64,000 bases of DNA from the NCBI GenBank assembly GCA_010909725.1, contig JAACMV010000015.1:620001-684000 (forward strand), written 5' to 3'. The translations under genes were made by a program, and so were the position numbers. The notes beneath the pieces are model-generated. The model had not been told where the DNA came from. It was given only the letters and a program-made list of their open reading frames with translations, and ran no database searches. This DNA is from Picochlorum sp. 'celeri'. Taxonomy: Eukaryota; Chlorophyta; Trebouxiophyceae. Below are positions 34,327 to 36,203 of this stretch, piece after piece (position 1 is the stretch's first letter; every line of letters begins with the position of its first letter).

Positions 34327-35610
34327 TCAATATAAAAATGGAACAATTCTATATGGTACGATTTTGCAGTACTTATCGTAGTCAGCCTTGTATTTCTTTC
34401 TACATGCCTCTTCGTCTCTCAACTCTCGATGAACCAATAAAATTGCAAAATAAATGGCATAAAAGTATGGAACGATGCCAGATTCCGTCCCAGCTGGAAG
34501 GCACCATGCAACACCCATCAGCCAGTCTCCAAAATAATTTATATGCCTCGAGACTCCCCACCAACCTGAGATTATCAGTTTTGTACCCCTTTCTGTTGGC
34601 AGAGTCCTCAAGTGTGCTACAGCAGGATCATTTGGATTTCGACGAAACAAGTCCTTCTGCGAATTAGATCCTCGGAATGTTAAGTAGCCTAGTATTTTCA
34701 AGCAGATAATACCAACCAGAGCTATCCAAGGCAGGGAAGGAGAGCGTGTCACCAATATCCTTGTCTGCAGAGAGTACGTGAACGGCACCCACGCTAAATC
34801 TCCAAAGGCCAACATAAAGCCAAATCCATCTGTGGTGATATCCATTGTCGTCAAAATGGCTCTCTCAAATACTAGAGAGTCTAACACATATATGGCTTGG
34901 AAAATGTTCACCAGAACCATCGGGGCAGAGATTGTCCCTGTCATTGAAAGCTGCTTGTGCGCCATGCCCAGGTTGAGGATTACCCAACCAATCAGCCCGG
35001 GATAGAGTTCACAGAATTCTTTTAAATCCAAGGATCCAACACGAGGATTTAGTTCACGCCCAAGAAAGAATTCATAAATTACATTCCCCGTACAGCTTCC
35101 TTCAGAAGCAAGGAGCCTGCCAGGCACAAATGATCTGGCATACAAGTAGGCAGAGAACACCAGAGAGAAACCTATCGCAGATGTCATTAACGGAACATAG
35201 TTGTCATACAGCCACGACAAATTCAAATCATTCCTGACAAATCCAAAATATAGTGCTAAACTGACCGTTATAACAAAGTTCTTTAGGCCTGTCAGCTTGT
35301 ATGTCAGCCTTGAGCCATCTGCCAATTTTGTTCCTTCGATTTTTTCTCCTGGTAGAATTAAATGCAAAGCCACTTGGAACAATAGCCACCCCAGGAAAAC
35401 AAGGGTAGCGTCCCATGTGAATATTCTGAAATCCCAGGACAAAGACCTCAGCGGCGAGCCAAGACTGAAACAAGTCTCAGCGTGGCACAGGAAAACAAGG
35501 GCATAACACACAGCGGGCAATCCTAAGATGATTCCTAAAGGCCCGACCACTGGTCCAAAGAACTCATAATGATGGCTATCGACCGAGGTATCAATATTTC
35601 TGGTGGCCAT
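34327..35610 (-). CDS. Delta(14)-sterol reductase (ERG24/FACKEL family)
   Basis: NADPH-dependent membrane enzyme reducing the C14-C15 double bond in sterol synthesis, normally in the ER. Single exon, 427 residues from the ATG at 35610, with about eight to ten hydrophobic segments. Diagnostic blocks: FFLGRELNPRVG, ELYPGLIGWVILNLG, GFMLAFGDLAWVPFTYSLQ, SGWWGVSRHINYFGDWLMG and the C-terminal YKADYDKYCKIVPYRIVPFLY. The end and the GWWG block favour C-14 reductase over 7-dehydrocholesterol reductase. The open frame continues upstream through a tRNA gene (giving EWLRRQ), but that part is not coding. The gene's promoter region thus contains the permuted tRNA-Ser. Confidence 0.93.
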   Translation of the reverse strand: MATRNIDTSVDSHHYEFFGPVVGPLGIILGLPAVCYALVFLCHAETCFSLGSPLRSLSWDFRIFTWDATLVFLGWLLFQVALHLILPGEKIEGTKLADGSRLTYKLTGLKNFVITVSLALYFGFVRNDLNLSWLYDNYVPLMTSAIGFSLVFSAYLYARSFVPGRLLASEGSCTGNVIYEFFLGRELNPRVGSLDLKEFCELYPGLIGWVILNLGMAHKQLSMTGTISAPMVLVNIFQAIYVLDSLVFERAILTTMDITTDGFGFMLAFGDLAWVPFTYSLQTRILVTRSPSLPWIALVGIICLKILGYLTFRGSNSQKDLFRRNPNDPAVAHLRTLPTERGTKLIISGWWGVSRHINYFGDWLMGVAWCLPAGTESGIVPYFYAIYFAILLVHRELRDEEACRKKYKADYDKYCKIVPYRIVPFLY

Positions 35611-35758: not shown

Positions 35759-35763
35759 AAAAA
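35759..35763 (-). terminator. Pol III T-run terminator for the permuted tRNA-Ser
   Basis: Five Ts on the minus strand, right after a TCATTC-TTTT-GAATGA hairpin that directly follows the 5'-half of the tRNA. Confidence 0.6.
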
Positions 35764-35780
35764 GTCATTCAAAAGAATGA

Positions 35781-35899
35781 TAGCAGGCTGGCGCCTTAAC
35801 CACTCGGCCAAAGCAGCGGTCCAATCGGACGAAATCACTTTTGCAACTATTACGTCGCTGCCTGCAGGATTCGAACCTACGCGACTTTCGTCACCAGCT
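35781..35899 (-). tRNA. Circularly permuted tRNA-Ser(GCU) gene
   Basis: On the minus strand the 3' half comes first (35899 down to 35856) and the 5' half second (35817 down to 35781), with a 38-nt spacer (35818-35855). Rejoined in the right order they form a complete tRNA-Ser. Acceptor GCTGCTT (35811-35817) pairs with AGGCAGC (35857-35863), one G-U. The D-arm begins GCCGAGTGGTTAAGGC; anticodon stem CCAGC pairs with GCTGG (35894-35898). The loop carries anticodon GCT (35882-35884 mirrored as 35784-35782), a variable arm GAC-GAAA-GTC follows, and the T-arm is GTAGG-TTCGAAT-CCTGC. The discriminator is G and no CCA is encoded. The break is between positions 37 and 38, the canonical intron site. 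Leader GGCAG can pair with CTGCT of the 5' half to make a bulge-helix-bulge for the splicing endonuclease. Confidence 0.9.
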
Positions 35900-36203
35900 A
35901 CACTGCCTTTGAAAGAATCAAAGAGGTGTCAATCGTGAATTTCCTGCAGTATTTGACCATATGGAATACCCCATTCTCGCCGTACCGTCCCACAGCGCCA
36001 GCGATATGAGTGGATTATGGAACAAAAAGCATGTTGGCATACATAATACTCCATGTCAGCTGCCACAGCACCAGAAGGCAAGCCACCATTCCGTGATGGT
36101 TGTCCCTCGCACTTGTCTCATGACACCTGGGATCATTCATGATTATGTTTCACGACTATTGTTCTGCAAAATTTCAATATAATATCCATATAGTTATATA
36201 GTT
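35900..36203. other. Gap upstream of Dcp2
   Basis: 304 bp holding the tRNA leader and the Dcp2 promoter. A 73-codon open frame here (35961-36182) has no protein-like features. Confidence 0.35.

Follow-up and report, generated by a model that had tools for sequence, protein, structure and literature searches.

A very probably functional circularly permuted tRNA-Ser(GCU) gene, one of at least ten permuted tRNA genes in the green alga Picochlorum sp. 'celeri'

Can a transfer RNA (tRNA) gene whose 3′ half is written ahead of its 5′ half be the source of a serine tRNA in an alga? The question is raised by a locus on the minus strand of a 64,000-nucleotide (nt) stretch of contig JAACMV010000015.1 of Picochlorum sp. 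'celeri' (positions 620,001 to 684,000), the whole of which is called the window here (G+C 44.8%). An earlier note, made from the letters of this DNA, had read the locus as a circularly permuted tRNA-Ser(GCU) gene. We are highly confident that it is a functional permuted tRNA-Ser(GCU) gene, for which the searches gave a single locus. The same permuted design occurs in at least nine further tRNA genes of the alga, a set absent from the earlier note's account, which covered the Ser(GCU) locus alone.

The gene has the following parts, in coordinates of the window:

35856..35899, minus strand: 3′ half of tRNA-Ser(GCU), positions 38-73, transcribed first, 44 nt
35867-35877, minus strand: B box, within the 3′ half
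35818..35855, minus strand: intervening spacer from discriminator G73 to position 1, 38 nt, no run of four T
35781..35817, minus strand: 5′ half of tRNA-Ser(GCU), positions 1-37, transcribed second, 37 nt
35800-35810, minus strand: A box, within the 5′ half
35782..35784, minus strand: anticodon GCU, positions 34-36, called as gct by ARAGORN on the rejoined sequence

The 3′ half holds position 38, the 3′ strand of the anticodon stem, a 13-nt variable arm, the T arm, the 3′ strand of the acceptor stem and the discriminator G73; CCA is not encoded at the locus. The 5′ half supplies the acceptor 5′ strand, the D arm and the anticodon 5′ strand, and runs through C32, U33 and GCU to A37. With the 3′ half upstream of the 5′ half on the same strand, a 38-nt spacer and a junction between A37 and position 38, the locus has the arrangement of a type II (37/38) permuted gene, a classification that is supported; the exact cut site is placed from the tRNA form. 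When the halves are rejoined, the acceptor stem forms 7 pairs (one G-U), the T stem 5 (one G-U) and the anticodon stem 5, the variable arm closes with the helix GAC/GTC, and the D stem has 3 pairs and a mismatch. The earlier note was correct to the base on the order of the halves and the spacer (minus strand, 35899-35781), and its break at 37/38, its serine-type helices with a long variable arm and its B box ahead of the A box all stand.

ARAGORN called no tRNA in the 64 kb window in genomic order, and Rfam gave no match there at the gathering score. Both results are expected because the gene is permuted. Given the rejoined halves, ARAGORN returned tRNA-Ser(gct) as the one identity. A scanner that scores stem pairing found a single match in the real window, at a score of 20.4. 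When the scanner was run on 400 Markov resamplings of the window (25.6 Mb, both strands), one permuted match appeared, scoring between 18 and 18.6, and none reached 18.6 or above. Such a short motif, read from assembled sequence, might owe its existence to chance or to an assembly artefact. That explanation has almost no probability left in our view: nothing in the resampled sequence attained the Ser score, the same structure occurs on two contigs, and ten genes in 20 copies share the design.

The second Ser(GCU) copy lies on contig C27, with 100% identity over 259 of 260 nt; the alignment around this pair covers 3,259 bases and has 8 mismatches. Thirty contigs, with 27,412,692 bases in total, make up the host assembly, and genome matches are mostly paired on two contigs, as in a phased diploid. 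The available text of the P. celeri genome report describes 27.43 Mbp in two sets of 15 scaffolds, with 46% G+C and a heterozygosity for single-nucleotide polymorphisms of 0.8% (PMC7225527).

Does the genome also contain a normal-order tRNA-Ser(GCU) gene, as the earlier note had suggested checking? Our genome searches score best candidates only, and the resulting survey of absences is strong but not exhaustive. RF00005 at E up to 0.001 gave 34 genome matches, which in our reading represent 18 distinct genes in normal order (some of them identified by eye) and no Ser(GCU). Raising the limit to E up to 10 added two matches (E 3.4 and 3.9), both of which are the permuted Thr gene. The Ser/Leu-type A box, with at most two mismatches, occurs at 25 genome places vs 0 for the reversed pattern. 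Twelve of these are tRNA genes that come two by two. Three of the pairs, Ser(GCU), Leu(AAG) and Leu(CAG), are permuted; the other three, Leu(CAA), Ser(UGA) and Ser(CGA), are in normal order and contain introns. Only two of the 25 have a GCU anticodon, the window locus and its C27 copy. The rejoined mature Ser sequence, used as a DNA query, matched these same two loci only, as two separate halves in permuted order. Within the limits of these tools, none of the three approaches (RF00005, A-box patterns, DNA query) found a normal-order tRNA-Ser(GCU) gene. The remaining 13 of the 25 A-box places are one recurring tRNA-like 5′-half fragment (CTGAGTGTGGCCGAGCGG...), each within 11 kb of a contig end, and the scanner found no 3′ half in either order beside them.

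The nine further genes permuted at 37/38 are Leu(AAG), Leu(CAG), Arg(CCU), Tyr(GUA), Val(AAC), Thr(UGU), Ala(CGC), Ala(UGC) and Ala(AGC). Each of the ten is present as two copies on two contigs, with spacers of 18-58 nt. In genomic order ARAGORN called 0 of the 20 permuted copies; after rejoining it called all 20. The set was drawn from A-box pattern searches, one DNA search and weak RF00005 matches, and ten is a lower bound because the genome searches made gave no tRNA gene for Cys, His or Gln, whether permuted or normal. Those searches also found no normal-order genes for Ala, Tyr or Thr. The Ala(AGC) copy on contig C30 was placed by hand and the Ala(AGC) pair is in opposite orientation; the allelic status of these two copies is less certain.

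The set was also scored with a permuted covariance model, R1, trained on the focal Ser gene and 14 computer-permuted normal tRNAs, and on none of the other nine. Across 57 sources (the window, 47 of 88 loci and nine more), R1 scored 49.4-70.7 bits at all 20 permuted places and at most 28.2 elsewhere. The lower matches are mostly halves of its normal training genes, and some have small E-values, down to 3.7e-8; it is therefore the gap in bit score, and not the E-value, that counts as evidence. The A-box searches were less selective. Over eight of them, the reversed-pattern control gave 0 matches in two, exceeded the true pattern in five and gave 14 vs 23 in one, so each A-box candidate had to be tested individually. 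Eighteen further candidate places from the pattern searches were rejected, since the scanner found no tRNA of either order there; other matches of two A-box patterns, mostly second-contig counterparts, lie outside these 18 places. The scanner missed Gly, Ser(UGA), Ser(CGA) and the C30 copy of Ala(AGC), and these were identified or positioned manually. When introns were permitted, ARAGORN took Leu(CAA) for Arg or Gly and Arg(CCG) for Trp, and both calls were corrected by eye.

Could the Ser(GCU) locus be a dead remnant, a tRNA-Ser pseudogene that tandem duplication and loss left in rearranged form, while the true Ser(GCU) gene lies elsewhere? One proposed origin of permuted genes is a tandem duplication after which the outer halves are lost (PMC3978253, available text), and our case rests on DNA sequence and a non-exhaustive genome survey. 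However, the stems of the Ser gene are intact, the halves of both copies are identical, a run of five T (T5) and an upstream element are in place (see below), and no other GCU gene was found in the searches made. For the first six non-Ala genes of the set, comparing the two copies gives 0 differences over 459 positions of the halves, whereas the spacers and 60-nt flanks of the same genes differ at 19 of 934 (Fisher p 0.0008 vs halves). This count excludes the three Ala genes, whose halves differ, and Thr(UGU), which was found later and whose halves are identical in both copies. Between copies, the Ala genes have mismatches or gaps at 27 columns of the 5′ halves and 8 of the 3′ halves, yet the stems are kept: despite strong divergence among the six Ala copies, 97.6% of cells are paired (123/126), and the three unpaired cells are all in the D stem. 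Taken together, these observations make a dead remnant very unlikely.

The divergent Ala copies also connect the two halves. Of the 21 Ala pairs, 8 have changes in both partners: the anticodon stem has four of these pairs, the D stem three and the T stem one. None of 500 shuffles was as high on pairing, on double-changed pairs or on covariation score, with the caveat that related sequences may exceed shuffles without structure; slid controls of the alignment gave 0-2 double-changed pairs. Further pair types number 11, which does not exceed the shuffles, 211/500 of which are as high. Because each half contributes one strand of the anticodon stem, the double changes at four of its pairs link the 3′ half, encoded upstream, with the 5′ half, encoded downstream. 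The Ala genes stand apart in how far they diverge between copies, much more than the other permuted genes, with the D arm rewritten and the stems mostly kept, in an assembly whose reported single-nucleotide heterozygosity is 0.8%.

The signals that flank the Ser(GCU) gene are these:

35937..35944, minus strand: upstream element GGAAATTC, common to other permuted and normal-order tRNA genes of the genome
35903..35907, minus strand: leader GGCAG, partner of positions 32-36 (CTGCT, 35786-35782), presumed half splicing-endonuclease (hBH-like) site with a 4-nt bulge
35765..35780, minus strand: trailer hairpin TCATTC-TTTT-GAATGA, 6 bp, directly 3′ of the 5′ half
35759..35763, minus strand: T5, presumed RNA polymerase III terminator, at +17

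The neighbours are two divergent protein genes, a minus-strand open reading frame (likely ATG at 35610) and a plus-strand open reading frame from 36204. The hairpin and T-run that the earlier note saw downstream are both there, although TTTT already occurs in the loop of the trailer hairpin, ahead of T5. With no run of four T in the spacer or the halves, T5 at +17 and GGAAATTC upstream, the sequence signals have the layout of one transcript. The set of ten agrees: a T5 lies within 45 nt 3′ of the 5′ half in 10/10 vs 4.9% of 45-nt tiles of the window, a background that takes in the whole window, coding DNA included, and TTTT is found in the spacer or halves of 0/10.

The leader and the anticodon loop pair as well. 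In 9/10 permuted genes the loop bases at 32 and 33 have their partners at leader positions -3 and -4, compared with 39/82 cross-isotype leader-loop combinations, and loop position 34 also pairs with -5 in 7/10 vs 14/82. In the introns of normal-order genes (11 sequences, ends set by eye), 7/11 fit the -3 register at the first two pairs and 7/11 fit the -2 register; thus, the introns single out no register.

There is another way to read this pairing, namely that the locus encodes a split tRNA whose halves are separate transcripts, joined in trans and adjacent by accident or descent. Pairing of the leader to the anticodon loop would serve trans-splicing equally well. However, the halves lie 18-58 nt apart, in fixed order and on the same strand, in all ten genes, and the sequence does not mark them as separate units, with no run of four T in 10/10 spacers and T5 after the 5′ half. 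We regard separate transcripts as a highly improbable account.

Two observations at the Ser(GCU) locus qualify the reading as a functional permuted gene. The first is the register of the leader pairing. For the bulge-helix-bulge proposed in the earlier note, GGCAG and the loop CTGCT form five contiguous pairs, one of them G-U, but the pairing starts at leader position -4 and not at -3 as in the sister genes, leaving a bulge of 4 nt; the focal Ser gene is the exception to the -3 register among the ten. The second is that the minimum-energy fold of the rejoined Ser RNA is not a cloverleaf (-33.4 kcal/mol, z -1.54) and 14/200 shuffles fold equally well. Therefore, plain folding energy gives no independent support and is neutral to slightly unfavourable.

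If the gene is functional, how would it be transcribed with its internal boxes in the wrong order? B box before A box is, according to a review, an order unsuitable for TFIIIC binding (PMC3978253, available text). The hexamer AAATTC occurs within 80 nt upstream of 6/10 permuted and 8/17 normal-order genes vs 3.6% of window tiles, a contrast inflated by a background that is the whole window and not intergenic DNA only. Two further normal genes have too little upstream sequence and stand outside this count. AAATTC is the most enriched hexamer in the permuted and combined sets, and GAAATT is first in the normal set alone. Its presence in 14/27 upstream regions has a binomial p of 8e-14, or about 3e-10 corrected for 4,096 hexamers. 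The permuted genes without it are Leu(AAG), Leu(CAG), Ala(AGC) and Thr. In this alga AAATTC is a likely upstream element of genes transcribed by polymerase III, and it may drive tRNA transcription. TATA was dropped as a common upstream signal: within 80 nt it precedes 8/10 permuted but 3/17 normal genes (raw counts).

Because at least nine other tRNA genes have the same permuted design, the tRNAs of the ten-gene set are probably made via circular RNA, by analogy with known permuted tRNAs, on which the circle, the enzymes and the charging in the following scheme are modelled. RNA polymerase III would transcribe the 3′ half, the spacer and the 5′ half to T5, probably aided by GGAAATTC. Folding would bring leader and trailer together at the anticodon loop, where the tRNA-splicing endonuclease would cut at 37/38 and a ligase would seal the two halves to form a circle. 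The spacer would then be excised at the acceptor stem by RNase P and RNase Z, after which CCA would be added and the tRNA could be charged.

How did so many permuted genes arise? The Ala loci have flanks and spacer stretches in common (blastn among seven Ala loci), and the two Leu genes, AAG and CAG, have the same 3′ half and resemble each other in the spacer. From these shared sequences, the permuted genes were probably multiplied as units after permutation. At C10:938900-939200, about 3.6 kb from Ala(CGC), there is an Ala-gene downstream flank in which the scanner found no tRNA; this suggests segmental copying of the flank. Two unrelated, normal-order genes, tRNA-Asn and tRNA-Phe, have a T-arm-like GGTCCCGGGTTCAAA in the 15 nt before position 1 in both copies. 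This stretch could be what is left of a tandem tRNA, a step on the way to permutation, or else a B box outside the gene.

Permuted tRNA genes are a known kind, of which the Picochlorum case is a new member with an unusually large and partly amplified set. In the available text of PMC3978253 there are 11 in Cyanidioschyzon, 19 in four prasinophytes, 2 in the Bigelowiella nucleomorph and 2 in Thermofilum; the Amorphochlora nucleomorph also has them (PMC4494063, available text). The earlier note's list of Cyanidioschyzon, prasinophytes and nucleomorphs is sound as far as it goes and omits Auxenochlorella, another trebouxiophyte, in whose strain UTEX 250-A permuted tRNA genes are described (PMC12636532, PMC12633428; available text). 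That alga is similar in algal class, in its diploid streamlined genome and in an incomplete tRNAscan-SE set, a comparison made without isotypes or counts. The prasinophytes Ostreococcus and Micromonas share the 37/38 junction, the 3′ half first, type II spacers (11-64 nt) and frequent Ser genes, and Table 1 of PMC3978253 includes a permuted Ser(GCT) of Micromonas pusilla with a 15-nt spacer. However, they belong to another green algal class, and that table gives at most six permuted genes per green alga, compared with at least ten here, and lists none of Tyr, Val, Thr or Ala (three genes here) as permuted for a green alga. Cyanidioschyzon merolae resembles Picochlorum in having an upstream element and T-run, the B box before the A box, and Thr and Ala among its permuted genes. 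It differs in its junctions of types I-IV and TATA-like upstream sequence, whereas here all ten are type II and AAATTC is enriched. In C. merolae, tRNA charging and the circular intermediate were tested (PMC3978253, available text), whereas the Picochlorum set is known from its genes. In the literature searched, which excludes most subscription papers, we found no earlier report of permuted tRNAs in Picochlorum; the available text of the Picochlorum SENEW3 paper reports the use of tRNAscan-SE and names tRNA-Sec as its only tRNA.

What might permutation mean for this alga? We tentatively propose, with rather less confidence than doubt, that tRNA transcription has been freed from the A-box/B-box order by upstream signals, that permuted genes then spread by whole-unit DNA duplication, and that they took over isotypes. 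If this is true, transcription is driven by signals upstream (AAATTC, present in roughly half the genes of either order) and permutation costs nothing; the wholly permuted isotypes are serine AGY and, to judge from the genes found, Ala and Tyr; and the divergent, stem-preserving Ala copies are a natural mutagenesis experiment on a permuted tRNA. Since non-targeted transgene insertion and CRISPR-Cas9 editing are reported possible in Picochlorum (PMC12633428, available text), it becomes possible to test there how such genes are transcribed when the A and B boxes are out of order. Permuted tRNA genes escape standard annotation, which makes streamlined algal tRNA sets look incomplete. The serine codons AGU and AGC, 168 of 8,184 codons in 13 stop-to-stop open reading frames of the window, would rely on the permuted Ser(GCU) gene, and at least ten permuted genes, including every Ala and the sole Tyr gene found, would make the alga dependent on circular tRNA precursors.
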